DNA of 64,000 bases. Source: Apostichopus japonicus. Its lineage: Eukaryota; Echinodermata; Holothuroidea; Aspidochirotida; Stichopodidae. The notes under the pieces are model-generated. The model worked only from the letters and a program-made list of their open reading frames with translations, did not search any database and had not been told where the DNA came from. Each line of letters begins with the position of its first letter. Within the stretch, counting starts at the first letter, position 1. Shown piece after piece: positions 7,107 to 54,355 of this stretch. The translations under genes were made by a program, and so were the position numbers. The stretch spans positions 31,808,554 through 31,872,553 of the forward strand of contig NC_092562.1 in assembly GCF_037975245.1 (NCBI RefSeq), given 5' to 3'.

Positions 7107-10100
7107 CTATGTATCAAAATTGCCTCGGTTGGCAATAACTCCTCTGTAAATTATTGAGACATAAATTGCAAGTAATAAAATAACAAAAACATCATCTAGA
7201 AGACCTAGGACTCCAAAGACTGCCTCTGGGATGATGTCAAGAGGTGAGATGAAGTAGAGAAGAGCTGCGACGAAACACACAAAGATCCGGAAACGAAACA
7301 TCCAAACAAGGCCACTGAAGGAGAAAAACTCTTGGAAAATATGTCTCAGCAACGTAGGCAGATCATAGATGTAGTCCATAAACTGTGAAAAGTCAAAGAA
7401 TATAGAAGAAATGAACAATTTGGGATGAAATGGGGCATAGGGCAACTATCATTAACTTGAAATATTATCAAAAATAACTATTTCAGTGCATGTTAAGAAT
7501 ACCAAACATTGTTAGAGTATGCCATGTCACGGCAGGTACCTGGGTAATGCACCAGTTCTATTGGTCAGGTACACAGTTATGAATTTACTGCCCGGTGTAA
7601 GCACTGAGAAATATTGATTTCAATTTTAAAGTAACATAGAGTTACTAAACAAACCACATGTAATAACTTTGAAGTTAAATATCTAGCTTAATGTACAGTA
7701 CAGTCACTTTAACAGAACTTAAGTTTACTGCAAGTTTGAATTTGCCAAAGGACACTATAATCTGGGCTGTTTCTTACAGGTACTGCAAATATCAAACATG
7801 TGTTCTTCAATGCCACTTTTACCAGAGGTTGACATCGACAGGTTAGCTTAAGGAGGGAATAAGACTTTTAAAGATCTGTTTTATTGGCTCCAATTATAGC
7901 ACTCTATAGCTAGGAAAGTTTATTGATTACATAATCGACCTGTCACCGTAATAAATCGACCTCAGGCTGTACAATTAGCCTGAGTAGGTTCTTAACACAA
8001 TTAGGCTCTTTTTGTAGACACTGTGGAAATATGTTCATGTCTACAGTGTAGTTAATCATACAGCGTTCACACAAATACCCTCATACAAGATAAAAATATG
8101 TGGCAAGCTGTTGCAGACTAATTGGTAAAAGAGGTCATTTTACTTCCAAGGCAGGTCTATTATGTAATCTCAAGATACGTTTCTATGATAGCATGCTATA
8201 CTGTAGTTGGGATCTATACAGCAGACCTTTAAGGAGGTGCAATATCTCTAATATCCTCTCTATCACTTAATCTCAAGAGACGTTTCCATGATAGCGTGCT
8301 ATAGTAGGGGTCTATACAGCAGACCTTTAAAGAGAGGGCAATACATATCCTCAGATCTATCACTTACTGGCCTTGATTCTCCTGAGAACCTTCGATTATA
8401 ATTATTTATGTCATCCATCATCCGATTAGCATCATCAGAATTAGGGTCCTCTTGAAAGACGGGGAAGAGAATCGTCACCTGAGGCACCAAAAGAAGAAGA
8501 GTAAACCTGTTTGCTGCCATCATACATTGTTTTTTTTTTGGTGTCAAAGTCAACAACAGAGAGATTGCTTTCCAACAACCTACAAACGATATGATCTCTA
8601 ACTCATGCCAGGCATGTTCTGATGAAGTATCTTAGCAAAAAATTAAATTGTGACTTGAGGCAACATACATATAAGTATCCTGAAATTCTACAACTAACAG
8701 CATACTAGTATTTATTGAGTTTTCACAACACAAATAACTCACCTGCTGCCTGCAGACTGGACAAGCGATGGCTCCTAACCAGTTACCATGTCTCCAGTAA
8801 GCAATTAGACAATCTCCTAAACAAAGAAACAGCAGATATTTTGCAAAACCACAAATTTGCGAGATAATACTTCAAAGCGTTAATATCTCTATTGTTATAA
8901 GTTTTAAGGGTTTTCTCTCCAAGGTACTAAAATATTGTTCTCTACTGCATTTATGATCTTAGTTATTGAAAACTTTCATGACTGCAGGGACGAATCAAGT
9001 TTCTTGATTTATGCAAAGGTGAGGCTAACTTAAACAGTTATTGATATGTAGTTTCTTTTAATTCCTAATGACCTCAAGTTCTTTAACACCTACCCTTGGC
9101 AAGGCAGTAATAACCAAAGTTTAAATCGATTTGTAAACTACTTTAACCAACTGTTTAAAAAGAGAAAATTAAGCAAAGACATACATTTTGGTAAAGGGCT
9201 GTCAAACTGTTGGGAGCATGCACTTGTTCATTTATTAATCACTGCTTCAGTAGAGAGAGTAAGTGACAGTAAAGAAGCAAGTAAACAACTCAACTTCAGC
9301 ATGCTCCTGAAGAAAAGAAGTAAAAATGTCTCACCACAGAAGACATGGCCACAATTAGTTTCAGTAGATAGTTGTCTTTCCTGAAGACAAACTGGACATG
9401 TGCCATCTACGGTATAGCTTGGACCTCTGTTTTGATTTCTTGTGTCACTTGCCCCACTTGTGTTAGCTGTTGATGCAGCATCATTGCGGTTCAAATGTTG
9501 TCTGGTTTCTTGGACCCTTTGCACATTTTCAGGATGAATTTGCTGGTGTCTGGTGAACCTGGGGGAGTAACATTAAGATGAAATCCTAAGAAGCTTGGTT
9601 GTAGGATTGTTCTTTTTTTCTTTGTGGACGAGTTCAAACAAGAATGTTACTAAGATGTATTGAAATTTGACAAACAAATATTAAATCCAATCATGAATAT
9701 TTGCATTTGATTTTGGTAGACAGATATTAACACATTGTATCGCTTAGTGGTATCATCAATTTGTCCTCTAGGGAGTATTGTATGTCGAGGCCTTTAAGGC
9801 ATGATATAAATACTGTCACAGATACCCAAAGTGTATTTGACTTCCACTTTTTAGTTATGCTGAGAGGGAGTGATGTCACAAGCTACAGGCATGAGAACTG
9901 TCCAGTTAGCTACACTGTATATTCAAGTTGTGAGAAGGAAATGAAGCCTCATTTTTAAATAGTTATTCTCCCTAAATGAGCCACTGCCCAAAACATATAT
10001 TATATAGATCATTAGTCACAACTCACATGTATCTTATGTAGTCAGGATGGGGAAGGATTTGGACTGGAACTGAGTTCACATTAGCAGCTAATGTCATACT

Positions 10101-13065: not shown

Positions 13066-15088
13066 TGACTATATGCCAATTGTTGTTGGATCGTTATTAT
13101 TTTGTCATTGAAATACTTCTTCCTTAAGTTTGCTCCTAAGATTGACATCAATATATATGTGCACATGGAATTTTATATTTCATATCTGCAAAGACTGCAA
13201 TCACAAACATATGATACATGCGGGCATCCAGGCCAATATATGAATTTGTTGTATCAGGTAAAAATACAAGACTCTTCTTTTATTGTTAGAAAAATTAACG
13301 AAATTGTCTGTTGACACGAAGAGAAAGTCTTTTCAGGTGACGTCAGAAAATGAGCAGTTATTTGATATGGAAATAATTGTATTTGTTTTCTGGAAGTTTC
13401 ATATGTCTATTGTTTTAGTGCTTTTTATGAACTTTAACCATCAAACACGCACGTATATGTTTTGATGAATATTTCCAACATGAAGTAATTCTAGCGTGAT
13501 TGAAGGGTACAAGGAAATAGCACACTCAAACCTCAGTTTATTCAATTAATTTGTAGAAATGTAATCGTTGCACTCAAATGACCGATTCAGTACAATTGAC
13601 TTTAGATGTACTGCGCATGCTCTGTGATCATGCAGACCAAAGCAAGGGGAATAAGAAAACAAGTTTGAACAACAAGCGGACATGACTTGGATCAACTTTT
13701 AGCTCACGTCCGGGGTAAACTTGTGATATGCTTTCAGTTTCAAGAAGACGTTATATCTGCAGGCTTTGAAGTATACCCGTACAGAGACTGGAACACAGTA
13801 GATGACTTAATAGGATAAGATATGCAACTAATTCATCGGCCGTTACTCCATCCATTCTCGGAAGTTAGATATGTTTGTATGGTGGCACTACATCGTGAAA
13901 CTAGCGAGAGTGATTTAATTCGTGCTATGGACGCAAAATTTGTGTGAAATGGTAACATAGACTACTAATTTCTATGTCTGAGTGTACGCAGGAGCAATCA
14001 AGTATTTACCATTGGGTATAAGTGAATAATTTCGTGAGAAAAAAACATTGTAAATGCGTGAATACTGGATGTGCATATACAAGAAGCCGGAAACAGCCTC
14101 TACATGGAGGAACAAACCGTATCTTTTTAATTAAGAGTGAGATATAGAGAAGGTAACGAGCAAGTTCATGGAAAAAATTTCAGTAAAGGTGAATTTCAGA
14201 TATTCCGTCGAGTCATTAAGTATTTCAATATTTGGTGATTTCTACAAATAATATTTAAATCCTTACACGTCACCTCAAATAATATTACCAAGCGGAAATC
14301 TGAATTATTTGACATTTGTAGATTTCTTTTGACTCACAAAATACTTTCATATCATGCTGATTGATTGTTTCTACCGGAAATTATACTTTACGCGGAGAGG
14401 AAAGAACTCCTACTACTCCGGACCACATATTAAACAACCAGTGCTATTAACTGGGGTTTGACTTACTACGAATTATTATTTATCGGGCGGACAATCGCGA
14501 TAAGCTTAGTCGTAAGATCGATGATAATACGGTATAAGCAACGATATCAATGACTCATTTAACGAGGCTGAATATCACCCTACAATTCTTCTAGATGGAG
14601 GGTTATAATCTTAAAATATTTCCAGCTCATGACTTCTCGTTAGTGTCATACTCTGTTTATGATGTCGTTAAAAGTATGAATGTTCGATTCATATCTTATT
14701 AATTGGAATCTTTACTGCCATGGTTACGCCAGCTATATATAGAATGGTGAGTCATTGGAATGATCTATAATACTTGGAATTGTTCAAAGATAACATGAAC
14801 TATCGTATATAGGCAATTATCGTACGCACGTGGAATATTATTCGGATATTACTCAGAATCATGGAAATGTTCTGGAGTCTGTTGGACTAAAAATATGAAA
14901 ATTCAAAATTCATTTGACAGCTACTGACTGACTAAAGAGAGTAATCCGGCTCGCAATGTGAAGAGATTACAGAACTGATGGTGAAACATTCTTCCTTATC
15001 TAGAGGACAATATACTAAACATTTATCTTGAAAGGACGGTATTTATACAACATTTACTTTGTAATAATTCAACCACTATTGAGTTGAG
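13066..15088. other. Intergenic, upstream of the GPCR
   Basis: AT-rich unique sequence. No coding region, RNA gene or recognisable transposon was found. It presumably contains the promoter and 5' untranslated region of the GPCR gene, but no TATA box or initiator could be assigned with confidence. Confidence 0.5.
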
Positions 15089-16854
15089 ATGATGAATGTG
15101 ACACGTGATCTTGACATCGGGAACGATGACTGGCCCCATCTTCGCGTGGATCCATTTTGGGTTCCAATTTATATTTCTTTTTATTTTCCGATTATGTTTT
15201 TTTCAGTCACTGGAAATCTATTGGTACTAATATCATTTTACCGAGAAGTCGAAATACGGAAGCGACGTCATAATTACTTCATAGCGAGTTTGGCTTTGGT
15301 GGATTTACTGACAGGGTTGATTGCTATACCTAGTACAGTGATAGCTAGGCTCGTAGTAACAACATTCACATGTATGGCTAAGACACGGCCTATCCTTCAT
15401 GTACCAGCTTATACACTGTGTGCAGCCTCAGTCAACCACCTCGTGGTTATCAGCTCAGACAGGTAAGCATAAAGAAGGTCACAATTAAAGGAAAATGATC
15501 AGGCTTGCATTTTTATTCAAAGAGACAGGAAGAAGAAAAAGGAAATGCTTTAATGATTAAATGCTTGAAGCAGTTTAGCTGGAATTTGCCAGGTAGAAAC
15601 TTCGGTACTATTACAGTGGCATGGGGAAGCTATCAGAGATGAGGAGGGAGGACGGGGTGGAGGAGGATGAGGAGGGATGAGGAGGGGAGAGAATAATGAC
15701 GAGGATTGGTGATTGCCTAGAAATAAAACATTTTTGATGATACGGCAGGCCAGACGGCTTAAACTTGCTCTCAAACTTAAAAATATTTTAACTCAACTTA
15801 CCACTTTAGTTTTTCGATAAATCGACTTTAAGCAAGCAATTTCTGTATTATTAACTGTTTTTTTTTTATATCAACGTTGCAACATTTCCTTTACCAAATT
15901 TCAAATTAACTTCTAAAACTTTCGACCAAATTGGACTATGTTATTTCACAACTTCTACTTAAAGTTCTCATCAGTTTAACTTTTGTTCTCGACGAATAGA
16001 GCTATTCAGAATTATTGGTGTATCTATTTATTTTTTTTTAAATCATTTATCTCGTTTGAATATTTATTTTGCCTTTAAGATAAACAATAGTTTTCTGTTT
16101 TCTACCAGCGTATATGTTAAAAGTAGTTGTATATATATTTTGCTTATCTAGATACCTGGCTGTTACTAAAGTCCTAAAATACCAATCCATCTTGACGAGT
16201 AGACGGTGTTACTTTCTCATCGCTATTGCGTGGAGCGTCGCCATTTTGTTTGGTCTGACTCCGGTTCTAGGAAGTATGAAGAATCCAGCTGATTTATCTA
16301 TATGTGATGGACATCGTTATAAAGCCAAGTCTGTTACTCTACACTCCTTGGCGATTATTGCTTTAATTCCAACCATTCTTATTATAGTTGTTGGAATATA
16401 CGTACGCGTATTGCTGGTAGCACTGAAAGCTTCACATTTGCGGACTAATATCTCTAATGCTAGCAGCAATTCTACGCCATCCGAAAGAGAAGTAACCGCT
16501 CGTCTCCGAGCAACCATCACCATGGCGATGGTTTTAGGCGCGTTTATCTTCTGTTGGCTTCCTACAGTTTTCAAACATATCTATGAAATAAAACATTGGT
16601 ATGATTTCGATATTATGTTTGCTGTGAGAACGATTGTTGAAATCATGGCCTACTTGAACTCTATGATTAACCCAATAATATATGGATACAGAAATCATTT
16701 ATTTAGGAAATCTTACAAGAAATTATTAAATCAAGTTTGTCGTCGAACTAGCGGTAAATTGTTCAATGGTCACATGAGGTCTTTAACAATAAGACTTCAG
16801 TTAACGAGTAGCACATCAGTTGATCTTGAGGGAGGGGACCACTCACAACCGTAA
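15089..16854 (+). CDS. Adenosine-receptor-like class A GPCR, two exons
   Basis: Exons 15089-15462 and 16152-16854 join in phase to give 358 residues. The intron (cag-gtaagc to cttatctag) splits the arginine codon of the DRY motif (R125). Seven hydrophobic helices are visible. TM1 has GNLLVL, TM2 SLALVDLLTG and TM3 ends SSDRYLAV. TM4 ends FGLTPVLG, very like adenosine receptors (IGLTPMLG). TM6 has FCWLP (W260, P262) and TM7 NSMINPIIYGYR. The C tail is short. An N-glycosylation site lies at N3. Two ligand contacts of vertebrate adenosine receptors differ: position 6.55 is His267 in place of Asn, and 7.43 is Tyr292 in place of His. The loop-2 Phe-Glu pair after the cysteine is absent. It should couple to G proteins at the plasma membrane; its ligand cannot be read from the sequence. 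A polyadenylation signal AATAAA follows at 16907. Confidence 0.9.
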
Positions 16855-18332: not shown

Positions 18333-21300
18333 TCATTCAATATTTAACTTTTCTTTGATTACATCAGCTAATTTTCCTTGGTCGACAGAATCAGCCTCCA
18401 ATGCTTGTGTTAGAATGTCTAGTTTCTTCCTCTCATCAACAGTACCGGAAGTATCTCTCCATTTAGCTAACATTTCATAGATCTGGTCTCCTACACTAAG
18501 GTTGTTATCTGCCTGGATGTGATAAAGGTCTTCTTTGGTCAGACCTAGCATTCGACCCAAAGCCTTCCATTCTTGGCCGAGTTCAGCAGAAATCTCCGTC
18601 AGCAGTATGTCTGTTAATAGTTGATCTTTACCTATGTGAACAGAATAACGAGGACCTTATATTAGATGAACAACGTCCACGTTAGGAATTGCGAAACTAA
18701 GGGAACAACACACCGTGGTAATATTTGCAAAGAGAAACTCGCTGACCATAATACATGAATGACTTTAATGCCACAGTACTAAGCAAAAACTAAATTACAC
18801 GTATAAATACGCATCCTTCCCACCAAGTTAAAGTTCTCTGCAAGTAGTTCGTGCCAAACGAAATTTGTGCATGTTTAAACCCCATGCACAGCCTGTATTC
18901 AAGGGTGCACTACCCCTAACCACATACTCATATCTAATAAATTAATATACTACAAGCGGAAATTTGGTGTTCTGTCATTATATTTGTGTAATAATCAATT
19001 TCCTTACATAGTACAGGTGCGATGCAGCCTGGGGAAGGCACAGAGGGCATATGCCTCTCCAATTTGTGTGGAACACCTGAGACTGCTCCTTTTCATAATC
19101 TAGAAGTGTCCATTTTTGTAATGAAACGTACCCTTTGGCATATTTGCATTCAAAAGTGCACTTTTGTTGTGATTTTGTAATAAACTGTTCCCTTTTATCA
19201 TTTAAGTGGTGTAGGCTATGGTAGCAGAAACTTTAAATACATGGATTTTAAATACGGAATTCACACAGGAAGCATTTCGAAGAAGCATTATTTCCCCCTC
19301 AAGTAATGTCATATATCTCACATCCCCTCACCCAGACGCAAACATGCTCTGCCACGCCACATTTCATGGCTTACCGGCACAGGAAGCCTCCGCATTGGTT
19401 GAATCTTTGAACCAGCTTTGGATGGATGACGTCTGGATCTTGTGGTTGTTTTGACACGTGACCGAAGATTTACGAAGACAGGCATCTACATCTACTAGAT
19501 TGTCACAAACTGGACACTTTACAGAGAAGGTAGACTTAAAACAACGATTGGAAGTTTTAATATTCAACTGTTTCTGAATTTCATCTTTGATCTAGTGAAC
19601 AGAGAAAGAAAAGAACTGCAGTTTACTTCAAATATAAGGATTATGATTTCATGTATAGGCCCTAACCATGTTAGGGAGGCCGACAGTCACCTGAGACACA
19701 GTGTTGTTACAAATATAAGATCTTGAAGATCAAATGACACCAAAATTGGTTGTTAAATGACAGGCGGCCATTTTGGCCTTCCATAGAGACTTTTATGTTC
19801 CTGTTAATTACAGTTGTAACTGATACCATGCTTTAACACAATCTTTGATACAGTATTCGACTCTTACACTTACATCGGAGAGATAGTTGGGGGTAAGCTT
19901 TGAAATTTGTGTACTTTATATTTAGACCCCTACAGCTCACAGAGGATATCTTTTTGTCCCTTTGTGAGGATAACTGAGCTGTAGATGAGTCGTTTTTTCT
20001 CCAAGTGTGAGATGTAACGTTAGGTTCCGACAGTACTGTTTACTACCATACTATCGGTATACGCATTGTGTGAATACAACTTAGTTTGCGTTAAGCCTAT
20101 ATTAGTGAGAAGTTGCAAGGTTACTCGATGTCAAAGTCATTTAGTATCATGATTAAAGCCACATGTCTCTTTGTAATAGCCCTGTCTTTTTCCTGTGGTT
20201 CTTAATATTTTTTTTTATAACCATCGTATTTGCGGGTGTCATATTTATAGATTCTCAAAGAAAGGACTATAATACTTGGTGGTTTTCATTAAGGGCAGGC
20301 TTATGCCACATTGAAGCCTAGCTTTAGAAATTAGATCAGACCCAATGACAATCTGTAGTACCGCTTTCTCGGGTCAGGGAGCTCGCTATGTAGGTGATGT
20401 AGTTATCTTGTCTCTCCAAATGTGTATGTTATGATGAGTCTTCATATATTCGTTACTAATTACGGTAATCTTAAACACCAAAATTGTTACTACGTATACT
20501 GCAATTGTGATCAATTTCACTCACAGCATTTGTGCTAGTCCATTTTAAAGTTGTTTTTATAATAAAAAAAAAATATTGTGGAGACAAATGAAGGCATGAA
20601 TCAACCGATACAGACCTGTAACATCAATAACCAAGCGAAAGATATTTAACACTTGTATATTCTATATGAATTCCTAGCTATCTTTTGGACAGCTACAGTA
20701 AGTTCTCTACTGGCTTGCAACCCTGCATGTGACACTGACAGTAATATCAATCAAAACCTGTTTTTTTATTGATGTATTTTTATTTCAGAGTACACAAATG
20801 GAAGTAAATTTGGTGCAAAACTTGGGTCAATTGAGGCAATTTTAGACAATTTTAGGCCTCCCAAGAGCAGTGTACGAAAATTGTTTACTACCGAGTAAAG
20901 AGGTTTGTTTACAAGTGATGAGAACTTCATGGTCTCATAGCAAAAATCTTTATGAACATAACATGAAAAACTGAAGGTGCCATAAATGGCCAACTTGTCA
21001 GCTATCCAGTGATGGGTAGAGTTTAGCTGGTTAGAACTTCTACAAGGAATAAGAGACCACATTACTTTGAAGATTTAATGTATAAGTCTGTGGGAAAAAA
21101 ATACATGGAGAATTAATCTACATGGAGAATGCTCCCAGAAACACTTACCTTGCAAACTGTCTGTGCTTTAGGTCTACTGCTTCCACCTGAAGATGTGATG
21201 TAAACCTATTGGTAGGACGTTAAACAGTTATATTAGGCAAACATTAAAGAAAGAGTTCCAAATATACGTACACTACTTTTAATGCATTACAATGCATGAT

Positions 21301-24300
21301 AATGTTATGTGAGGTCATCAAAAGTCTAGTTTCTGCTGAGGTTTGGATTGCTAGCCTAATGGTTTGTGTTGTAGATTTAGTTGTCCAGTCACTTTGACCA
21401 ATGAGACACTGATAATTAAAACATCATTCCTCGCAAACCAAGGGTAACTGAGACTGTTAGCAGTGGTTATATAGTTTAAACTTATGTCAAATCTAACTAG
21501 AGCAGCAATCCTGCAGAATATCAATCCTACTGATGAGGTTTTACTTTGATGCTCAGTGAATCAGTTAATTAGACAGGTATTGTGGGTACAAGTCATTTAA
21601 GGCATGTTGTGAACATACATTGTCATGCACAGCTCAAGTCACAGGAGAGATCACCAATACTACAGAATCACATAATGACAAGTATTGCAACATATAGCCT
21701 TAATTAGAATGACGTCACTCCCAACGAACATATCTAAGTTATAAGACCACAGCCACACTGGCAGGATAACTTTGAAAGCAACAAGTTCCTTTTCAAGATT
21801 GATATCTAAGCTGTCTAGATATAATGATATAACCTTAGATGAGCTGAGCTGTGACCTTAGATGTTTCATGCAACAAACGGAAGGCAACAGTGCCCCATAA
21901 TATGTCTCTGAAATTATTTTAGGCTTTACTAAAATAAAAACTTTGTAAAATAATTTCATATAGTATCCAGCGATCTGACAGGAGAAGCGAACAAACCATG
22001 GAGCTGTCAAGCATTACATGACGTCTACTGTGTATTGAGATCAAATATAATTCTGTGACAGGGCGTGGGGTTGCTCCCACCTACCCCCCCCCTCCCTGCA
22101 AAAAAGGATTAAGAAAAAATATAACTTTATTACGAGATAGAGCATTTTGAATTAAATTTACACTATACCTTAGCACTGTAAATAGGTCTGCACACACGGT
22201 TGTGCTAATGACTACTTTATAATGTGTGGTTGAAAGGGTGGATGGGTGTTGAAAAGTACCATGTCTCCCTGGATCCACGTACTGTATGGAATATACTTAC
22301 CCCTAGTACTGACTGGTCGAAAGTACAACGTGTTAGTGTAAGTTCTGTATCCTCCTCAATATCGAAATGACAATGACCTTTGGTCAGTCTAGACCCACCC
22401 CAGTCGTTTTCAATAGTCCATTGTCTAATCGATATGCAAAGCTCTGTAAAAATGTATTCTGCGAGGAAACAAATCAGGAACAAAGTCAGGCAAACAACAA
22501 CTATTTCACACTTCGACATCAAGTTCATTTTTATTGGTCGTGTGTTTGGTAGGAATTATTCATTCTTTTCGGTTTTTCTTTTTAGAGTGGAAGCATATAC
22601 ACATGACAATGTTATATGGCAGATTCACAGATTTTACTCATATTGGGTGTTTCGCACAAAATTGTACGTTGTTCAGCAATATCACCCGAAACAATAAATA
22701 TGAATTTAATCAACTTTAGACACCCTCTTTGATTTTTCCCAGAAGGTTTTAGAAACATGTATTAAATCATTGCAATCGGATTCAACATTTCGTCCAAAAA
22801 CACTATTTTACGATAAACTTCATCACAAACGTTTGTTAATTATTTGAAATGAAGTCTTAAGACTAATATAATGAATGAACTCACTGCTGACTATTAGTAT
22901 CGAATACCACTGCAAACTTGATCAAAATCACCTCAAACACTGACTGCTGTAAGCAAATTTAGAAGCTTAATCCTTACCAGGCATGCACCCAGCAAAATCT
23001 ACAAACAGTATGACATCATCACTGCTGGCTAATCTAATATATGAACTTAACTGCTGACTATTAGTATTGAATACCACTGTAAAGTTGATCAAAATCACCT
23101 CAAACACTAACTGCTGTAAGCAAATTTAGAAGCTTTATCCTTACCAGGCATGCACCCAGCAAAATCTACAAACAGTATGACATCATCACTGCTGGGTGTC
23201 TCTACTGGATCTGGATTCGGAAGTAGACTCGGGATCAGGAATTGTCGAGTTTTCTAGTAGATATGTAAGTATATATATATATGGGGAGAGAGATATATGT
23301 TAGTAAAATGTGTACAATAGATTACAAGAAATCATCTTGAGGAGTGCATATCAGGAGGTACTGTAGGTCTGCACTGCCCATTGGTTGTCTATCATTAAAT
23401 ATCCATAATACATATAAAAATTGTTAATCAATATTTATTGAAATTATCTCTGTTAATAGCTTTTCTCTGACAGATATGTGTTTATGAAAACCATTGAAAA
23501 AGATATATTTGAAATATGTATCTTGACACTGACCTCATTCTTTCCTGTTATGTCGTACAAGAGATGATGGAATTTCATAAAATCCAGGAGCGAGTCCTTC
23601 TCTTTGATACACTCCTTCCACATGTGACTCAGCAAATTTTCTGAAAGCACGCCCTCTTTATTCAGCTTGGTCCACATACGATCATGGGTGGACCACTGTT
23701 CATAACACACACACACAAAATGCATGCAGTTAGTACATTGATAAACTTGAAGTTAAAGTGAAAAATATTACTTAATTAGTAGAAAAAAAGTTAATAAGCT
23801 GGAATGAAAGTATTATAGTTGGAACCTGCTGTAGTGTATAAGTGGGACAAACGGACACGAAGCACTACAAGCACGTTGTTCTAACCGCCTGCAATAATTA
23901 CAATCCAAAACAAGGTTGTAAGTAGGCTGCAATAATATCACCATGGTAACAACAAATCGATCACAAACATAATGTATACTGATAAACTTACACGCTCCGA
24001 GGGATCCACGACAGTCACTGCTTTAACTGTTGCGTCCAAGGTTTTGATTGGCTCAAGGAAGACGTATGGCCCGTCACTGTTGTATCCAGTTAAAGCGTCA
24101 CCGGCCTCATTTACATAATGGAGCGCCTTCTTTATATCTGGCAACGTTTTATTCATCTCAGTACACAAAGTATCGACCTGATAATTAATATAACATTAAA
24201 CAAATATGATTTAAAAATTAAGACACAAGTTGTTACTCTTCTACAATTTCAATTTATATCTGCGATATTCCATAAATTTGAGTTAATATATACACATATT

Positions 24301-27300
24301 TATATACATTTAATTAAAAAAACAAGACTTGTAACATATTAAAAAGATATGTGTATTAATGCATGTAATTAAGTCATGCATACAACAGGCTTTGCTTCCG
24401 ATATTGGAATGACAGGTATGTGCAGGTGCCGTACACTGCATGGCACAGTGAAGTAGAAAGACAATAAAATTGTCTATCGGCACATTACGCATGTAGGCAA
24501 AACTAATTAACATGTGTGTGCCGTAACATGTTAGTTGACTCCCTGACCCTCCCCAGTTCTAGTCCTATCGTGAATGATCCAGAAACATGGTGATTGTTAC
24601 CTCCGGAGGGGATAATGACATCACTCCGCCATCTCGTTTCTTCATGAGGTTCATCTGTAGAACATGATACCAAACTGGCGTCATGGTTCCCGTTTCTAGT
24701 TCTCCATCAGCTACTCGATTAATATGTTTACGCAAGTCATCGATCTATTAAAGGAAGGTACAGCAATTAATCAATTACTTTTTACCGATATCTTTCTATA
24801 CTTTGCAGTAGGCGTATTTTATATTTAGTCATAATTCATTCAGAATAGTTTTTATTTTTGTAGCTAGTTTTCATATAGTCGTTGGAAGTTTTCATAGAGT
24901 TACGTTTTCATTACTTCTAGAACCTTCACCGATTCATCCTCTTACTGATATTACTACCCACTACCTACCCCCCCCCCCCCAACCTCATTGCTGTGGACAA
25001 TTACCATCTTCGTGCTCTTGGAGTCCATTTCACCCAGCTCTTGATGGGGGATGGCGTGGTACAGACTGATCACGTGTGGCTGGTAAACCTTCTCCTCAAG
25101 GCTGCTCCGAATCAACGATTCTATCTAAGAGATGATGATAAAAAAAACACTATTTCATACTTTTATTTGCCTGAAATATCAATCTAACATGTACTTAAGA
25201 TTACGAATTTGAAGGCAACAAAATGTTGCGACCATCTCCTTTTTCTCTGGAATCAATAATTTGAGAAAACACTATTAATATTGTTGAAGTATACAAGAAG
25301 TGAGGAAAATAGTAAGTACTGCGTATGTTACCTTCTCGATCTGCCCGTCAACTAATTTCTTTTCATCGTAAATTCCTACAACAATCACAGGTGGAGACAG
25401 ATACTGTTTATGGACTGGTTCATTAGTCTCTTCGGAAGCTCCCAAGACTCGTGTGAATATCATCCGAAGAGTATTATGAAATTGATGGAGAAATAACTGG
25501 CAAATATAACAAAACAAAACCATAACATGTATCATCAACATTGCTTTATAACAGTGATATCGCAAATATCATTGCAAGGTGCATATAGCCCATACATACA
25601 TTTGTGTTTTATGTTTAATGGCACACATAGTAAAAAACTATCTCTAGTTTATTCATGATAGATGTACACGATAAATGTCTAGTTTAACACAGTCATATAC
25701 AATATTTGTCTAATATACATAGTCACATACTATAAATGTCACATACTATGAAAATAACTATTAAAGTATGGTCTCATGAGGCAATTGATGAGCTGTAAGA
25801 CTGTTTTTTATCAGGTGGGATCAGGTAAGAGGGCAAGGACCTGCATTCATTCAATGCATGGTCAGAGTGACAGCATTCATTCAATGATACTGTGACTGCT
25901 TATAAACATTTCTGTCAAGACGTAGAGTATACTAAGACTGTTACGTAATACCCAAACAACCAGCCGCCCAAGTTTACACGAACATCTTTAACTAGTCATT
26001 GAGCTTGAGCGATGTACCTAGGTCATTCAAAGACGTAGTAATAGTTACGGCTCCAAAGAAGGGAAACATGTTTAAATGACTATCGACCAGTTGCTCTTAC
26101 ATCTGTAGCCTACCAATGGTAATTACGTTCGAGTGCTTTATTTTAACATTGCGGACATCAGTGAGACTTTGGCTCATTTGGTAAACAAATGTTCCTACGC
26201 CCGTGTACTTTGTATTGATTATAGTTCTGCTTTCAATACTATTATTCCTTCCCGGTTACATCTTAAATTATAAGAACACCTCAAACTCCCAGCTTCTATT
26301 TCTGATTGGATTCTAGATTTCTTTCTATGCTTGCAAACAGGCTGTCAGAGTGGGTACCATTCACTCAGAAGTCTCAGATGCTATTATATCGAACACAGGT
26401 ACTCCACAGGATTTTATCACCGTAAAAACTGTTCTACTACGAATGTGAAGCCGCCGGCATGCGTGCCCAACTCTTGATAAAAAAAAGTGCCCAGGTTCAA
26501 AGTTTTACCCAACTTATTTTAGAGTGTGCGCATCATACCCGTTAAAAACATTTATATTTTGTGTAGAATTTTATACTTTGTGCACACTTATATTCTATAT
26601 GTGTGCATTTATATATATTTGTGTGCTCTTATTTTTGTTCAAATATACATTTATATATTTTCGTACATTTTGCATTATGAGTGAACTTTGAAGTTTGTTT
26701 GTATATTGCATAGGTCTGTTGTTTACAATTTTGTTTTTGTTTAGAGCTCTTGCTATTACCCGATTTCCATTGCATTTTTGTATGCTTGGCGGGATAAATA
26801 CCTATATATCTATAATACACATCTATCTATAATACACATCTATCTATAATACACATCTATCTATAATACACATCTATCTATAATACACATCTATCTATAA
26901 TACACATCTATCTATAATACACATCTATCTATACTACACATCTATCTATACTACACATAGTCATATAATTTGAATGAAACACTTACCGACTCTCTTGGTT
27001 TATCTTGCTTGATATCTATAGTATCATAGTTTACAATATACAATACAGTCATTGGGTTCGTGATGGGAGCTGGCATGAAAACCTGTAACAAAACGAAAGT
27101 AATCTCGATTTAATTTACATGCTAACGTTAACCATACATTTAAAGGAACCTTAAAGTCATGCTATGACTGTACTAGCGGGCAGTACAGTAAACAACAAAC
27201 CAAACTGAGCAATGATTCTTAGCAAACAGCTTAATTTGATCCTGCCACGAGTTCATGTTTTCATTGGACAGTTGGATGAATAGATTATCTAACCGAATAT

Positions 27301-30300
27301 TGAACAGTTTATGAGTATTGATAATTTAAAATAGATTGATAAATATGTAAAACCGTGTATAACTGACCTCATGCAAAGACTTTGAAAGACATTCTTGACT
27401 GAATTCCCATATCGATAGGCGTGACCTCACTTGCTCATCTTCAGCTGTGACCTCTGTTACGTCATTGGCTGTCTTCAGCAACTTAAACTGAACTCTCCTT
27501 AAAATTCGGCTTTCTAAATCTTCATCTAAATTGTAATGGTGAACATCGAGGGTAAACTATAGTTAATATTTCTCTTACAATTTATTTTACGCAAGGTCTA
27601 TTTTCAAAATGAAAACTTTCAATGTGCTTGAATTTAAATACGTTGCAGACTAAGAATAAATTTTAAAATAAAGTTTCTTTTAACATCGTGGTATGACTTT
27701 GGTAAGTTAAGTTATCCAATTACTTGGTTTCTTCTCTAACTTACCTATATGTATCTTTCTTGCTATTGGTTCTAATGAGTTCTTCTACAGAAAAAAGAAG
27801 AATTATTTGAGGACAATAGTCGTAGGCAATACTGAATGTATTATTCTCGTGGAAACATTATACATACGGTATTTTATCCTGTACATATCTGGGTAAGCAA
27901 CTTCCGTGTCCAGGATTCACTTAAAGAGGGGAGTCGATATCAACTTCACATATCGCAATACCTACTGTCGCGCATGCGCGTCTTGCGTTATCTCCACGTG
28001 TGCGTTTACAGTTTTCAAACTACGAACGGTTGAGTCTTACATAAAACAGGTTCACTAGCAAGGAATCAACGAAGACCCCCCCCACCCCCCCCCCCGGTAC
28101 GCTACTCAAATGACGTCACAACAAACCAACGTCGATAAATGTTTACAGAACAGACGATTAATAGATGTTGTTAATGAACATTTTCAAGCCAATTTTGCCG
28201 GAATAGAAGGAAGCAGTAGTATAAATATTACATAAAAAGGTCAACATTTCATTTGCGAAAATTCTCTTGAGTATAAGTGCCTCTCTGATGCTGTTTTACT
28301 TTTTCTTTATTCCAGGACAGATAAGGTCGTATGCACATATGGACAGCGTTATGGAACTATCACATATATGCGTGTACGTATTTTGACTTGTCAAGTTGTC
28401 AGAACAGGCCCTATACGACAACAGAAAATGAACGAATAGCTTTCAGAACACCGACTTCGCAATACGTCCATATATAATGAAAGTAGGATCATTAGGACAC
28501 CCGTTTTAAATGTTTATTCTATAAACTCTACATTGTGCAGTACTATTCTTTGAGAAACTGAGTAATAAATAAGGCAGTGGCGTAGGAAGGTACTTTTGAG
28601 TGGGGGGGGGGGCTGAAGACTGATGGCCGGCCAGGGGGAGGGGGTGTCCCCTCCCGTTTGGATTTGTTTGCATTTCCAGGTAGCCTCAGATGCAATTTGG
28701 TGCAATATAGCACACTTCAACACCCACTCCATTTTGTAAACTTAATTTTGTATTTTCACCAGGCCTTAGATGCAATTTGGTGCTCCAAATGAGATTTTTT
28801 TTCTCATTTGGAAATGAAAAAGGGTTTTTTCTTACTTGCGAAGCGGGGCGGAATGATACTTCATCCCCCCCCTCATTTTTCACTGGGGGCTGGCGCCCCC
28901 CCAGCCCCCCCGGTTCCTACGCCCTTGAAATAAGTACAACTTCAAGAGGGCAAGCTGATTAAATTTATCGTTCCTCTGTAAAGCGATCTATAACCTACAA
29001 GATGGTCTGCATACCTTTAACACGTGACCCGTAGAACTATAATTAGACGCTAAGAAGGAACACTCCATTGCCAGAAAAGTAAGACATTTAAAAGTTTATA
29101 CATACCGCCTCAGTGTTGGTTTCTTTTAACTTAAACGTCACACATTCTGCGCATGCGATCTCTATCAGTCTCTCTATGTCTGAAAAGGAAATTTGAGCTA
29201 CGTTTTATGGTTTTCATGATAATCCTTTCTTCACAATATATTGTTGAAGTACAAAAGCACTTGGAATGAGCTCATTGCAAGGAAACTGCAATTAGCACCA
29301 CAACGATGTAACCAATGGGACGATTTTGAGTACTCATTTATTTTAATAAAATGAAGAGTGCCCTCACTTTATAATAATTCAATTTTACTTTAGGTATCAC
29401 CTGATTGGTGCACATTGTTTGGACTGTAAATTCAATGCTAGGAATTTACTGATGATTCTGCGCATGATCAGAAATCTTACCATTCCTCTTTAGCTTTGGT
29501 ATCCAGTCTTCACAAAATGTGACGCATGCTAAACCTGTGGAATTACCCGAGTCTCCACTGTTGATAGAAAGCGGAACAAACAAGAAAAGAAAATAAAGCC
29601 GGAAAGATAAAGTGTCCGGTATGTGTGAATGTGTAATGAAATACTACTACTGAGTATCCAAAGCGGTGGAACGCGTGTTCGGCAATAATTTGCGTGTATA
29701 TTCACAGAATCAGGCATGAGACTCTTCCGCGGAAACGCGGATTTCCGATTTTTTTTTTTTTTTCATGTTCACGTTTTTTCTCGTAATTCGCGTTTTTTAT
29801 TATTTTTTATTATTTTTTTTAATTATTATTTTTTTTTTGGCCGAACATGCTGGACTGTGAACGGAAGGAACACCCAATTTGACCAGTGGTGGAATCAAGT
29901 AGCACAAAGCAAGCAAAAAAGCCTTTTTTTGGTTCAAAAAAGCTAATAGATAAATTATACAAGCAGAAATTCCACACTTTTTTGGTGAGTTACGTGATGT
30001 GATAGATTCCAAGGGCGTAGGAACCGGGGGGGCTGGGGGGGCGCCAGCCCCCCCAGTGAAAAATGTGGAGGGGCGGAAGTATCATTCCGCCCCCCCCCCC
30101 CCCCCCCCGCTTCGCAAGTCTGAAAACCCCTTTTTCATTTCCAAATGAGAAAAAAAACCTCATTTGGAGCACCAAATTGCATCTAAGGCTAGGTGAAAAT
30201 ACAAAATTAAGTTTACAAAATGGAGTGGGTGTTGAAGTGTGCTATATTGCACCAAATCGCATCTGAGGCCACCTGGAAATGCAAAAAATTCCAAAGGGGA

Positions 30301-31790
30301 GGGGGACACCCCCTCCCCTTAGACCCCTCCCCCAGGTCGGCCATCAGTCTTCAGCCCCCCCACTCAAAAGTACCTTCCTACGCCACTGATAGATTCCATC
30401 TAGAGTCCACCATTTTGCATCTAAGCCCTCCTTACCTGACAAGGGGAGGGGGACACCCCCTCCCCTTAAACCCCTCCCACAGGACGGCGATCGATAAATT
30501 TCAGATTTTTTTTCCCCAGCTCAGTCTCATCCCTGCAGAATGCAACATGACATGTTTTATTAACCACCAGATGCATTCACTATATTATTCACCATATGTA
30601 GGCCTACATGATGAATTGAATAAGAATTGTACAAACTGCACATGTTATTGTAAGTTTGGTCCAGCTGTTAGTCATATTTAATTATAGGATATCTTACCTT
30701 CCTTGCTGTCTTATCAGACCCTTCTTGATAAATCGAACGGACTCGGAGTCGTCCCCTAACAGCACTAACCTGACATCAAGTGGCGCCAAACATCGTGAGG
30801 ACAGGAGAGCCTCGTTCAGAGCGTTGTTTGTGATAGATGGACATGTATTACTGGAGACTGTAGCTAAACGATAAACACAGTAATGTAGATATAATGCAAA
30901 TTGTACAGTTTTAGGTTTCAGGCCCATCCCAACTCAAGACACGTGCGAAGCGGGCATTATCAGTTCCAAATTCATTGGGCATTCCTCTCTATCCCCGCCC
31001 ACCCCCACCTCCTTACCAAAACGAAAACATAGAAAGGCAATGATAAAAATATTTCTGTAGCCAATTCAGTCAACAGATTCCATCTTGTCACATAATTTAG
31101 AATTGTAATTGTGAAACCCTTTCGCTCCTGTTTTATGTTTTGTATTTTGGGAAAGAGAATGATGTAGTGAGGGAGACCGAAAGTCATGGACCTTTGATAT
31201 TTTTTTACTCTTCAACATAAGTCATAGATCTCACTACGTTCACACGAAGCTATATTAAAATGTCTAAAAGTTAAAATGAGCGTTTCTTTGAACTAACCTT
31301 TTGGAATGATCAAGCGGACTTTCGTAACTGATCCATATACATCAATGATACCCCAGACGGGTTTAGCGAAATCAATATTATCTTCTGCCTCTTTAAAGGT
31401 TACTCTTGCCACATCGTTTGTGCATAAGCTGACAGATTTGTCCTCTTCACACCTTAAAGTCACCCAGTCGTACTTCCTAAGAGAATTCTCAAGAGAAACC
31501 CCCCAGTTACCAGTCTTCTGCATAAAGTCAGGAACTGATGACGTCGGCAGTCGCTTGAATGATGCGGGGTCTTGATTGGTCAGTCCGATGCAAAGGGTCC
31601 CTGAATACGAAGGGTCCACTGCTAATATTTCTACGATGATAGGGGAATTTAAATCAATTGGAGAATTGGTGAAGGTCACTCCTTGCCCGAATGTTGTGTA
31701 AGAAGCACCGGTTGGGTTCTCGCGGCTCGCTATTGTTCCATTATCGAATAAAGTGATGTTTTTACCGCAACGGTCGGCGTGGAACGACAT
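18333..31790 (-). CDS. NHR-Roc-COR-zinc finger-Death domain protein (Roco family)
   Basis: Seventeen coding exons on the minus strand: 31790-31298, 30863-30698, 29557-29481, 29179-29106, 27784-27745, 27525-27368, 27082-26987, 25496-25332, 25124-25005, 24744-24601, 24177-23992, 23695-23534, 23253-23145, 22443-22301, 21205-21149, 19591-19375 and 18631-18333. All have GT-AG borders and compatible phases, giving 901 residues. Residues 1-164 are a Neuralized homology repeat (FHADRCGKNITLFDNGT, GNWGVSLE, VWGIIDVYG). Residues about 190-463 resemble Roc but with degenerate GTP-binding motifs: LLGDDSESVR for the P-loop, WEFSQE for WDFAGQ and VGIYDE for the VGTHxD motif. Residues about 464-730 are COR (YVFLEPIKTLDATVKAV, GVLSENLLSHMWKE, FLIPSLLPNP). 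C756, C759, C776 and H780 form a likely zinc site. Residues 803-901 are a Death domain (LGQEWKALGRMLGL). Roco proteins such as DAPK1 and MFHAS1 are signalling scaffolds; here a role in Death-domain signalling is inferred. The start is the ATG at the NHR edge. Confidence 0.86.
22887..23214. repeat. Tandem duplication containing part of exon 13 of the Roco gene
   Basis: Two copies of about 145 bp lie 164 bp apart. The right one includes the end of coding exon 23253-23145 with its splice donor. The left one carries the last 51 exonic bases and an intact donor (around 22982-23032) but no acceptor. The exonic 51 bases are identical in both copies, while about five differences lie in the roughly 92 intronic bases. 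The left copy breaks off at ctgctgg and so cannot encode the whole exon. Confidence 0.88.
26020..26415 (+). mobile_element. LINE (non-LTR retrotransposon) reverse-transcriptase fragment
   Basis: The plus-strand translation contains pieces of a LINE reverse transcriptase. VVIVTAPKK and a stretch like DYRPVALTSV mark the fingers region. CIDYSSAFNTIIPSRL at about 26208-26256 is the palm A box with its catalytic aspartate. PASISDWILDFF then follows. Wording of this type is found in CR1/Rex/Jockey-like endonuclease-reverse transcriptases. It is 5' and 3' truncated and broken by several stops and shifts, including one just after the A box, so it is an old dead copy. It sits in the intron between coding exons 27082-26987 and 25496-25332, antisense to the host gene. 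Confidence 0.82.
26806..26957. repeat. 17-bp AT-rich minisatellite, about 8-9 copies
   Basis: Tandem copies of atacacatctatctata lie just downstream (in plus-strand terms upstream) of the coding exon 27082-26987, ending about 30 bp from its splice donor. Most units are identical; the last two read actacacatctatct. It is unrelated in sequence to the 17-bp array at the left edge of the window. Confidence 0.93.
28575..28927 (-). mobile_element. hAT-type MITE, family A, copy 2
   Basis: An inverted copy of family A: it begins cagtggcgtaggaagg and ends ggttcctacgcccttg on the plus strand. Flanks aaataagg (28567-28574) and aaataagt (28928-28935) are an 8-bp target duplication with one mismatch. It lies in an intron of the Roco gene. 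The interior shares the hairpin ctggcgccccccc and the atttggtgc segments with the copies at 11043 and 30010. Confidence 0.88.
30010..30388 (+). mobile_element. hAT-type MITE, family A, copy 3
   Basis: It runs caagggcgtaggaac to cttcctacgccactg, with the perfect 8-bp duplication ATAGATTC at 30002-30009 and 30389-30396. It is highly similar to the copy at 11043, implying fairly recent mobilisation. A related scrap with ggggagggggacaccccctc follows at about 30440-30490. It lies in an intron of the Roco gene. Confidence 0.9.
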
Positions 31791-32513: not shown

Positions 32514-32730
32514 GACCTGGTGTGTGCCGCGACGCGAGCGCAGTGACAAAAGTCCTGGCGAATATTCCAGCGAAACTTGTAGACGGACGAATGTCCAATA
32601 TTGAAGAAATCCAGCTCCCAACTTGATGACTTCCACTCCGGAGGTCGACTACTAATGAAGTTGTGCTTGCAGCTTGTTTATCCTTGGATTCCTGTCCTTG
32701 GGTAACTCAGAGGCCACAATAAGTAGTGCT
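32514..32730 (-). other. Probable 5' exon of the Roco gene
   Basis: On the minus strand a good splice donor (ccaggtc|gtgagt) ends this stretch at 32514, and the matching acceptor is at 31828 (tttttag|tttcgcg). The frame in phase with the NHR exon is open from about 32706 to the donor but contains no ATG. I therefore treat it as 5' untranslated, with translation starting at 31790. An upstream initiating exon or a non-AUG start cannot be excluded. Confidence 0.55.
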
Positions 32731-39051: not shown

Positions 39052-39437
39052 TTTCTCCCTCCCTCCCTCCCTCCCTCCCTCCCTCCCTCCCTCCCTCCCT
39101 CCCCTCCCTCCCTCCCTCCCTCCCTCCCTCCCTCCCTCCCTCCCTCCCTCCCTCCCTCCCTCCCTCCCTCCCTCCCTCCCTCCCTCCCTCCCTCCCTCCC
39201 TCCCTCCCTCCCTCCCTCCCTCCCTCCCTCCCTCCCTCCCTCCCTCCCTCCCTCCCTCCCTCCCTCCCTCCCTCCCTCCCTCCCTCCCTCCCTCCCTCCC
39301 TCCCTCCCTCCCTCCCTCCCTCCCTCCCTCCCTCCCTCCCTCCCTCCCTCCCTCCCTCCCTCCCTCCCTCCCTCCCTCCCTCCCTCCCTCCCTCCCTCCC
39401 TCCCTCCCTCCCTCCCTCCCTCCCTCCCTCCCTCCCT
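39052..39437. repeat. CCCT tetranucleotide microsatellite, about 96 units
   Basis: An almost pure run of ccct, interrupted by a single extra c near 39101-39104. Open frames on both strands (Leu-Pro-Pro-Ser or Arg-Glu-Gly-Gly repeats) are a consequence of the repeat. It directly abuts the right half of a family B MITE. Confidence 0.99.
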
Positions 39438-40077: not shown

Positions 40078-43000
40078 ATGGCCCTTACGATGGCTGGAAC
40101 TACGTTCTTTTCGCTTTTAATTGTTGTTCTATGTTCAGTTAATGCAGAACAAACCACAACAAGTCCATTCGAAGGAATTTTAGAAGATGCAGCATCTTGT
40201 AAAGGAGACTGTGCTGGAACATACCCTCTTCATACTTACCCAGAAGTAGGTATTTCGTTGCTGAATATTACAGTAGGAAGTCCTAATGTTTTATCAATCA
40301 ATCTTGTATAACGTTGGCAGTCTAATATGTTGTGTGTAAACTTTGTATAGCAGTGGTATACATTGGTGAGTGTGGTACGATCATTACTGTATGTCACACT
40401 AACCGCTACTGTATGTCTACTTATCAGATTTCGGACTAGGAAGATTTAATACAAAGCATTGCTCATGGTAACATGTCAGTCACCAACCCAACTGAGAAAG
40501 GACACATACAATTTCATAGAGAAAATCTGTCAATTTTAATATATTGAGAGATGTCAAATGTACTGTAAATGTAAACAAATTTGAAACTTTAATGATAACA
40601 CAGATTGGATATAGTTATAACATTACACAAACCTTCATGTTGATAATGGCTATTCTCAGTTATAGGGAAGGGTTTGTGATATAAATATTAAATGTACTAT
40701 CAGTATGTGTATAGTGGACACTCTATCAATGTGCCACGGTGTCCTGTAAACACCTTTTGATGACCGCTGAACTTATTGTGTAGTCATAAAGTGTTCACAT
40801 TTTGTGTAGCACTTTGGAGGTTTATGGAGCAGGCAGTGACAAGATTATAGAAGTCTAGGGGATGTGTGGTCTATGATGGTTCATGTGCAACTGCTGCATT
40901 TTGGAGTGAATTTATCATTATGCTTGTTGTTACTGAGACTTGGTACTGTACTATAAATCCCAACAATAGATGGTCAGTACTATATTGTGTAATATATCTA
41001 CTGTAACAGGTAACTAGAACGGTTAGTTCCTCACCAAACTACAAGTTTGCCATCAAAATCTGATACCACGACAAACTAAACACAGTGGTACCACGTGTAA
41101 ACGGCACCATATTATGCTCAACGTGCTGGATGAAACTTGCAGATAACACAGTCTACCCTTTCTTGTCTTTTTCAACAGCCAGCCGATCTGAAAGCTTGTA
41201 GCAGAGGATGTCGTCTCTTCTCAATGATGGACTTTGTGGAAACTTCCTTTAATGAAGATTTCAACAACACTATAACAGAGTGTCGCAATGGTAGGCCTGC
41301 TGCATTACAATGCTACCACTGTATGCTTAACTTAAGATCAGTGGATAAAGTTGAAACTTCATGGCAGTTTGGCCAAATTAAAATGATTCATATGATGGTT
41401 GTTCAGTTCACATTAATGTGATGCCCCATACTGTTATTTGTCATAAATAAAAACTGTTACCATATTATGACAGCCAACATCATCTTTGTTTCTCAGGTTA
41501 GCTGTATTTACATTACAAATTATACATTGAGTGAAGGGTCTGAACTCTGAACCTCCCTCTATCCTACTTTATGGCTGGATCTTAATTCCTGTTAGCAATA
41601 ACATACTTAAAACCGAGCGTGGGATGAACCCCATGCTCGTGGTCTAATGTATGCAGGTCCATGAGTACATATGTTCATCTCACTTAATACAGTACTTTGG
41701 AAGGGAGTGGTTGTTATGTTGTAAATAGAGACAGACCATGCTTTAATTAAGATTTTTCATGTGCTCAGATTCTGTGACAGGCCATTCTTTGGGGAGAAAA
41801 GCACCTTACTGTGATAAGGTGTTGTGCTGCTACAAACCAGTGCCCCCAAAAAAAGATTGCAACAGAGTCAGTACAGCTGGTATCAGCTTATGTTTATAAT
41901 GGAATGCAGAATGGCAGAATGTTTTAGCTCACACACATTACTTGTGTGAGGTTGTGGAGTTCCTGTTGTTGTCAAAGTTTTCAACTTTTTTCAGTGACTT
42001 TTGCTTCCTGCTCTTTCCATTTGAGATTTTGTGAGCTTCTTTGGGGGAATTAAACTTCTTCTTTCTGCTCATGACTGATCATTAAGTGATAAAACTATAG
42101 GTTTTGGTAATTTTTATTATTTCCGCGAACAAATTGTTTATAAGATTTGTACATGACACAATCGTTTATTTCTGTATCAATTGGGTGTATGTATTGCCAG
42201 CCTTATGTTGAGCTCAATTAAAGTGATATGGTTAGTGTACCCCCCTTTCCTTATAATGTGGTATGTGCCGTATTCATGATACATCACTACTTTGTTCCAA
42301 CTAACAGTCAACTGATATTGTTTCCAAAGTTGCGGTTACTACTTCTATTAAGGGGTTCCGTATTAAAATCCCCTCCCCTTTAAGTTATAACTGAGCGCTG
42401 TAACTTAAATCAACTGAAGCATGTCTGATTTCACACAACCAAGTCAATGGGATGTTAGGGTGTGATTTCCGTCGCAAACTGAACTCAATGGAGAAGGCCC
42501 ATTGACAGTACTGTGTAAAAGTAAAACAACCGTTGAATCAACATTCTTGCAAAGAAGGAATCAAGAACGATCTTAACAAGAGTTATGTTGAGGTTAGATA
42601 ATAGATACTTTGTTTATTTATATACATGTTGGCTGAAGAAAGTGAAAAGATCACTGAATAAAGCAACCACATTGTGAATAACAAATCAAACAAAAGATCC
42701 CCATAGTGCCAAGATTTGTGGGTTACTCTAGTGTAACTTAGTATGGAGGTAGGATGGAGATGTTACGCTTTGGCCTGACCTAAATTAGATGTAGGCTTAA
42801 TGCTGTATGTGCTCAAAAGTCTGTTGTTTCAGGTATTGTCCGGAGGGCCGCTGGTTAGTTTGGTGTTCTAGTTTGATGAATGACCCGTTAAATGGCTATT
42901 ACAGAATTGAGTAAAAGAAAACTTAATAGATCGCAGTGGACGAGTAACACGTAATCCAGTGCTCAAACTGGAACCTACTGGGGCTAACTTTTTGGCTAAT

Positions 43001-53591: not shown

Positions 53592-54355
53592 AAATCTTCC
53601 ATAGAATGGGGTTTGGATGCCAGGATGGATTGGGGTATCTTCCAAAGAAGGGGGTCGGGGTGCCAGGATGTAATAGGGTATCTTCCATAGAAGGGGGTTG
53701 GGGTGCAAGGATGCAATAGGGTATCTTCCATAGAAGGGGGTTGCGGTGCCATGATGTAATGGGGTATCTTCCATAGAAGGGGGTTGGGGTGCCGTGATGT
53801 AATAGGGTATCTTCCATAGAAGGGGGTTGGGATGCCATGATGGAAAAGAGTATCTTCCATAGAAGAGGGTTGGGGTGCCATGATGGAAAAGAGTATCTTC
53901 CATAGAAGAGGGTTGGGGTGCCATGATGTAATGGGGTATCTTCCATAGAAGGGGGTTGGGGTGCCATGATGTAATAGGGTATCTTCCATAGAAGGGTATG
54001 GGGTGCCAGGATGGAATGGGGTATCTTCCAAAGAAGGGGGTTGTGGTGCCAGGATGGAATAGGGTATCTTCCATAGAAGGGGGTTGCGGTGCCATGATGT
54101 AATGGGGTATCTTCCATAGAAGGGGGTTGGGGTGCCATGATGTAATAGGGTATCTTCCATAGAAGGAGGTTGGGGTGCCAGGATGGAATAGGGTATCTTC
54201 CATAGAAGAGGGTTGGGTGCCATGATGTAACAGGGTATCTTTCATAGAAGGGTATGGGGTGCCAGGATGGAATAGGGTATCTTCCATACAAGGGGTTGGG
54301 TGCCAGGATGCAATCTGGTATCTTCCATAGAAGGGGGTTGGGGTGCCAGGGTGGA
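53592..54355. repeat. 43-bp minisatellite, about 18 copies
   Basis: The unit is ggggtgccatgatgtaatag followed by ggtatcttccatagaaggggg and tt. Variants alternate between ccatgatgtaa and ccaggatggaa. Several units are 2-3 bp shorter (aagggtatggg). The minus strand has no stops in all three frames over most of its length, producing Pro/Trp-rich open frames that are not credible proteins. Confidence 0.96.

Follow-up and report, generated by a model that had tools for sequence, protein, structure and literature searches.

We analyzed a 64,000-nucleotide (nt) stretch of the genome of the sea cucumber Apostichopus japonicus (assembly GCF_037975245.1, contig NC_092562.1, positions 31,808,554 to 31,872,553; GC content 38.8%), which we call the window and number from its first base. 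On its minus strand lies a predicted gene for a Roco-type protein that has an NHR (Neuralized) domain at the front and a Death domain at the tail. The gene model, a prediction from the DNA sequence alone, comprises 17 coding exons that run from a start ATG at 31790 to a stop codon ending at 18333. Joined by script, the exons gave 2721 nt including the stop and a spliced product of 906 residues. All 16 introns follow the GT...AG rule, the exon phases are all compatible, and the reading frames stay open throughout. A previous sequence-only reading had proposed 17 exons joining in phase at 18333..31790; scripted joining and the splice signals bore out the structure and both of its ends, and the length of 901 residues given there becomes 906. 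A pyrimidine-rich acceptor was found 38 nt 5' of the ATG, which puts the first base of that exon at 31828 and implies a further 5' exon, probably non-coding. Read from the sequence, the frame leading from a candidate 5' exon into exon 1 is open and has no ATG, so that 31790 is the likely start.

Profile searches recovered each of the three folds, NHR, COR and Death, that the sequence-only reading had named. The NHR matched Pfam Neuralized at profile positions 1-148 of 149 (expectation value, E, 5.1e-27) and, in the PDB, chains of Protein neuralized (E 2.5e-8). The Death domain matched its Pfam family at E 7.1e-12 (45.7 bits against a cut-off of 22.6); the best PDB chain was CRADD (E 1.6e-4), followed by RIPK1, ankyrins and PIDD. 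The Pfam COR-A match, at residues 507-638, is significant by its E of 8.9e-5 but reached 22.9 bits and lies under the curated cut-off of 35.3. The COR was also compared with a profile of bacterial Roco proteins, for which prokaryote genomes were scanned at the DNA level for sequences coding for the switch II motif of bacterial Roco proteins; at least 115 loci were found, and 98 usable Roc-COR segments, reduced to 76 by removal of near-duplicates, were aligned, a set chosen on its G motifs. LRRK2, the positive control, matched this profile at E 2.1e-31. The 906-residue model matched it by hhalign at E 6.9e-6 (one comparison) over residues 453–742, co-linear with the profile from the end of Roc through COR-A to COR-B and encoded by exons 9–16. 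This segment, which was picked for the shuffle test because it was the profile match itself, scored 44.9, compared with a mean of 14.6 and a maximum of 22.8 for its shuffled versions; none of 150 shuffles scored as high. The protein thus has a COR C-terminal to its Roc-like part, the arrangement that marks a Roco protein, as judged by the bacterial profile with Pfam COR-A under its cut-off. We did not find a RING family, such as the C-terminal RING of NEURL1-type proteins, anywhere in the 906 residues (Pfam, E up to 10; the RNF220 match described below is under the cut-off), nor did Pfam find a kinase like the N-terminal calmodulin-dependent kinase of DAPK-type proteins; the first domain found is the NHR, and a coding 5' exon is possible. 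An NCBIfam search of the model returned two weak polymerase matches only.

The bacterial Roco alignment crosses the joins from exon 9 to exon 16 and so also supports the gene model. A chance chain of open reading frames was ruled out: the COR homology spans seven exon joins, and the NHR and the Death domain lie far above their cut-offs. Two adjacent genes would be another way to account for the locus, a one-exon NHR protein ending in the exon 1 donor and a Roc-COR-Death gene starting near exon 2. The NHR is indeed restricted to exon 1, whose donor contains an in-frame TAG at which an unspliced read would end, so that intron retention would give a 165-residue NHR protein. However, the exon 1 donor and the exon 2 acceptor are in phase across an intron of 434 bp, and neither AATAAA nor ATTAAA was found on the minus strand of that intron, whereas AATAAA is present after exon 17. 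Furthermore, Neuralized is joined with Death and TIR, in a Roc/COR context, in other phyla, as far as the available text of PMC9334734 and PMC5094078 goes. We consider a pair of genes quite unlikely; the presence of NHR, COR and Death domains is supported, and a single gene is the best reading of the locus.

Table 1. Predicted features of the NHR–Roco–Death gene (window coordinates).
Feature	Position	Strand	Description
Candidate 5' exon	32514..32706	-	Probably untranslated; followed by GTGAGT donor; upstream limit is the open-frame limit only
Exon 1	31298..31790	-	Residues 1-165; start ATG and entire NHR (Neuralized) domain
Exon 2	30698..30863	-	Residues 165-220; linker and beta1/P-loop-like DVRLVLLGDDSESVRF, putative degenerate G1
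Exon 3	29481..29557	-	Residues 220-246; Roc-like region
Exon 4	29106..29179	-	Residues 246-270; Roc-like region
Exon 5	27745..27784	-	Residues 271-284; Roc-like region
Exon 6	27368..27525	-	Residues 284-336; switch II/G3-like LSIWEFSQE (WDFGGQE or WDFAGRE in Roco proteins)
Exon 7	26987..27082	-	Residues 337-368; Roc-like strand VLYIVNYDT
Exon 8	25332..25496	-	Residues 369-423; putative G4 position PPVIVVGIYDEKK, without [TN]KxD
Exon 9	25005..25124	-	Residues 424-463; end of Roc-like region; bacterial Roco profile match from residue 453
Exon 10	24601..24744	-	Residues 464-511; COR-A
Exon 11	23992..24177	-	Residues 512-573; COR-A
Exon 12	23534..23695	-	Residues 574-627; COR-A
Exon 13	23145..23253	-	Residues 628-664; COR-A to COR-B; 3' part within a 167-bp tandem duplication
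Exon 14	22301..22458	-	Residues 664-716; COR-B
Exon 15	21149..21205	-	Residues 717-735
Exon 16	19375..19591	-	Residues 736-808; COR-B match ends at residue 742; candidate zinc site CPVC...C...C..H
Exon 17	18333..18631	-	Residues 808-906 and stop; Death domain, apparently nearest CRADD/RAIDD
AATAAA	18197..18202	-	Possible poly(A) signal, ~130 nt 3' of the stop

Between the NHR and the COR, residues 165–486 gave no Pfam match, even with E allowed up to 10. With a Roc-only bacterial profile, the best match fell on residues 318–339, at switch II/G3 (SRLSIWEFSQECLSKSLHEVFM versus FRLNIWDFGGQEIYHATHQFFL; E 0.059), and 6 of 150 shuffles were as good. Comparison of residues 180–470 with the profile plus LRRK2 gave E 0.062 locally and 0.97 globally, and single-sequence hhalign with LRRK2 settled on the same register at a score that chance would also give (46 of 300 shuffles did as well; reversed sequence 18.9 versus 18.5). 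A scan of contigs with LRRK2 as the query found no relative, and a scan of viral contigs with the 906-residue model found no match. The lack of a Pfam family and the non-significant profile matches would also suit an unrelated linker fold in place of Roc, which would make the protein NHR-COR-Death. We regard this as unlikely, in that the best profile match sits exactly on switch II and strand-like segments (DVRLVLLGDD, LSIWEF, VLYIVNYD and PVIVVG) precede the COR as they do in a G domain.

None of the Roco nucleotide-binding motifs G1, G3 and G4 was found at the aligned places, the placements themselves coming from alignments that are not significant alone. The G1 stretch of the model is GDDSESVRF; phmmer against G-alpha-o set GDDSE-SVR against GADNSGKS (E 0.4), without GK[ST]. 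The G3 place reads WEFSQE, compared with WDFGGQE/WDFAGRE, without DxxG, and the G4 place reads GIYDEKK, compared with GTHLDVS, without [TN]KxD. If the placements are right, G1, G3 and G4 would be stripped of their defining residues; with these lost at the aligned places, we use the term Roc-like for the region, which probably cannot bind GTP. The Roc part is probably a pseudo-GTPase, and GTP binding by it seems unlikely. We also weighed the opposite possibility of a nucleotide-binding Roco GTPase that would work as a real switch in the manner of DAPK1 or LRRK2, the NHR being its input. The missing GK[ST], DxxG and [TN]KxD make this improbable in our estimate, even though the Roc-COR-Death order is that of DAPK1 (PMC6337361, available text), the COR is supported by the bacterial Roco profile, and partial mis-splicing or misalignment of the Roc-like region could conceal a motif.

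After COR-B, from residue 761, the protein carries CPVC...C...C..H, a candidate zinc site. Its match to the bacterial Roco profile was not significant (25 of 150 shuffles were as good), and the region gave a Pfam RNF220 match below the cut-off. Among the 76 bacterial Roco sequences, 41 have CxCxxC after the COR, and the longer pattern occurs in 2. Given CxxC...C...C..H in the window and CxCxxC in the bacterial set, we draw no firm link between the two zinc patterns. In the domain string first proposed for this gene, NHR, COR and Death therefore stand, the Roc-like assignment is weak, and the zinc site is without homology support.

We then asked what the rest of the genome holds. By tblastn of the model, there was no second copy of the gene within the 64-kb window, only a 167-bp tandem duplication at exon 13 (22863-23195, 94% matches), which covers the 3' part of that exon and its donor and leaves an extra copy in intron 13. 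The Neuralized model gave 14 matches in the genome, namely the window gene, two on contig C5, one on C3 and ten on C11, and both C5 matches have a RING in nearby DNA. From the match sequences, we take the C5 matches to be NEURL1-type, the C3 match NEURL2-type and the C11 matches NEURL4-type. These genes share the NHR with the window gene, and no Roco or Death parts were found at their loci when residues 165–906 were searched against the genome (E up to 10, with 60 of 129 candidates scored). That search, to whose scored candidates the following results also apply, returned 61 matches, 14 of them in the window gene; the other 47 all fell in the Death part (residues 802–904; query positions 638–740). 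Contig C12 held 29 of these 47 between 19.4 and 34.2 Mb, which suggests a large expansion of Death-domain genes. The best match outside the window was to the Death part, on C20 (38% identity, E 1.4e-7), where neighboring open frames, treated as one gene, encode a CARD together with a Death domain, the pair that CRADD carries. By pairwise E-value, both in the PDB and in the same genome, the Death domain of the window gene thus appears nearest to CRADD/RAIDD, proteins that differ in carrying a CARD and not an NHR-Roco part. Residues 165–801 had no other match in the genome among the candidates scored, a search that weak copies may escape. On that lack of a match elsewhere among the scored candidates, and on the open state of all frames, we rejected the idea that the gene is a pseudogene belonging to some larger family. 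The COR-A model found two other places, on C20 (E 9.0e-6) and C21 (E 0.0108), both under the cut-off, which we read as LRRK-like. Since the off-window matches are Death-only and the COR-A places LRRK-like, the Roc-COR part of the window gene stands alone in the genome in these searches.

Among known Roco proteins, LRRK1/LRRK2, MFHAS1 and the bacterial members share COR-A and COR-B with the window gene, by the bacterial-member profile. LRRK2 and the bacterial set have intact G motifs, unlike the window gene, the bacterial set having been selected on those motifs. DAPK1, which differs in its ankyrin repeats and in a kinase before its Roc-COR, is alike in combining Roc-COR with Death. According to the available text of PMC6337361, it shares the absence of leucine-rich repeats but differs in a Roc reported to bind GTP, while LRRK1/LRRK2, MFHAS1 and bacterial Roco proteins differ in carrying leucine-rich repeats, a kinase or other parts. 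The same text lists LRRK1, LRRK2, DAPK1 and MFHAS1 as the vertebrate Roco proteins and sorts Roco proteins into groups, with no NHR named in the portion available. SPRY-like domains, Neuralized among them, are coupled to Death-superfamily domains in the available text of PMC8195603.

Closer precedents come from other invertebrates, and in view of them the earlier remark that this domain combination was not known to be described needs qualifying. The available text of PMC5094078 concerns a gene of a sea anemone that combines kinase, SH3, Roc/COR, Death and TIR; in the nearest database combination, found in the centipede Strigamia maritima and the oyster Crassostrea gigas, Neuralized takes the place of kinase and SH3, and a less similar combination occurs in Strongylocentrotus purpuratus. 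The S. maritima and C. gigas proteins nearest to that gene, NG3, resemble the window gene in having Neuralized where NG3 has kinase and SH3, but carry TIR_2, for which no signature was seen in the window gene; the likeness is by description only, with Roc/COR not stated for each protein in that text. In PMC9334734, as far as available, the legend to Fig. 6 on Aplysia TIR/COR proteins names NHR, ROC, COR, Death and TIR, and the MyD88-like protein LOC101861518 bears a Roco domain. The Aplysia set shares NHR, ROC, COR and Death with the window gene; it is TIR-centered and is described there by a list of domains without the order in each protein. An NHR–Roc–COR–Death protein without a TIR was not found in our searches of open-access literature. 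An NHR-Roco-Death family has thus been glimpsed before, with a TIR, in the centipede and mollusks, whose proteins are likely relatives, and the window gene looks like a TIR-less relative of these protostome NHR-Roc/COR-Death-TIR proteins.

These TIR-bearing proteins, namely the published relatives with TIR_2 and Death (PMC5094078) and the Aplysia MyD88-like protein with its Roco domain (PMC9334734), both from the text available, raise the possibility that the window gene encodes a MyD88-like adaptor whose TIR lies on a missed further exon or in another isoform. Pfam found no TIR in the 906-residue model, the reading frame stops in exon 17 and a possible poly(A) signal follows 130 nt later, and a rhodopsin-type receptor gene comes next, on the opposite strand at 15-17 kb. 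A six-frame regular-expression search across all 64 kb of the window gave no TIR box-1-like motif, although such a box would go unseen if an intron divided it. A missed TIR is, in our view, very improbable.

In the surroundings of the gene, eight open reading frames were chosen by eye from 62 and examined. The rhodopsin-family receptor gene (15083-16854, plus strand) has at least two exons, with Pfam 7tm_1 at 1.5e-10 and 7.4e-23. On the minus strand, 7107-9572 contains an exon with DUF1232 (1.5e-12) and another that is RING-like (best 1.4e-4, below the cut-off), presumably an RNF170-like gene. An exon at 41134-41421 (plus strand), perhaps extending from 40021, matched Pfam BSMAP at 0.0014, below the cut-off, and is taken by us to be TMEM59-like; Pfam matched nothing in the frame at 40021. 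A GADD45GIP1-like gene lies at 57858-58169 (plus strand; Pfam CR6_interact 5.9e-17), perhaps from 55334, where the frame likewise had no Pfam match. By eye, related copies of an interspersed element with C-rich stretches were seen at ~11.0-11.4, 28.6-28.9 and 30.0-30.4 kb, two of them in introns of the NHR–Roco–Death gene. Long minisatellite arrays occupy 4-2037, 39055-39437, 47014-50789 and 53594-54356, with units of 17, 4, 31 and 43 bp; some give rise to long open frames that are repetitive and do not represent genes.

The sea cucumber gene probably encodes a genuine adaptor of immunity or cell death. On balance, we favor the reading that this gene, of which no second copy was found in the genome, encodes an adaptor of the animal Roco type with NHR, degenerate Roc, COR, candidate zinc module and Death domain, which would act as both sensor and scaffold for Death-domain assembly without GTP. 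Several points weigh against it. The COR-A match falls under the Pfam curated cut-off. Homology of the Roc-like region, judged alone, is not significant by the shuffles, by the local and global comparisons or by LRRK2, and the reading of the G motifs depends on those weak alignments. The NHR is found only in exon 1 and the Death domain only in exon 17, such that for the predicted joins between exons 1 and 9, and for that between exons 16 and 17, the evidence is phase and splice signals. Lastly, the apparent likeness to CRADD comes from pairwise E-values and not from a tree.

For such an adaptor, the NHR, a SPRY-like beta-sandwich, would most likely bind a ligand or a partner protein. The Roc-COR core would no longer cycle GTP but may dimerize through the COR and keep the Death domain ready; on partner binding, the paired Death domains could nucleate or cap a Death-domain complex, with partners most likely of the CRADD/RAIDD, PIDD or MyD88 type. 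We infer the transcript, cell location, dimerization, binding partner and pathway. The sequence-only reading had likewise suggested a Roco protein in which the NHR drives Death-domain assembly: its sensor or scaffold part is reasonable, as an inference, whereas the GTP-driven mechanism that it implied is not supported, given G motifs that look degenerate. The CRADD-like Death domain hints weakly at assembly of the PIDDosome type, and the protostome TIR-bearing relatives point to a MyD88-like ancestry; we make no choice between the two. A more specific proposal, which we put forward tentatively and with some doubt, is that of a deuterostome Roco adaptor that has lost both GTP binding and the TIR of its NHR-Roco-Death-TIR relatives. 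In it, NHR sensor and COR dimer would directly drive CRADD/PIDD-type assembly with no nucleotide switch, which would add a fourth architecture to those of the animal Roco proteins LRRK, MFHAS1 and DAPK1.

If true, a deuterostome Roco protein with an NHR front, a Death tail and a worn G domain would suggest that immune or death signaling can use the COR scaffold without GTP. It would also parallel the bacterial Roco (AP-GTPase) conflict proteins, which, in the available text of PMC8195603, mount variable sensors and effectors on one and the same core.

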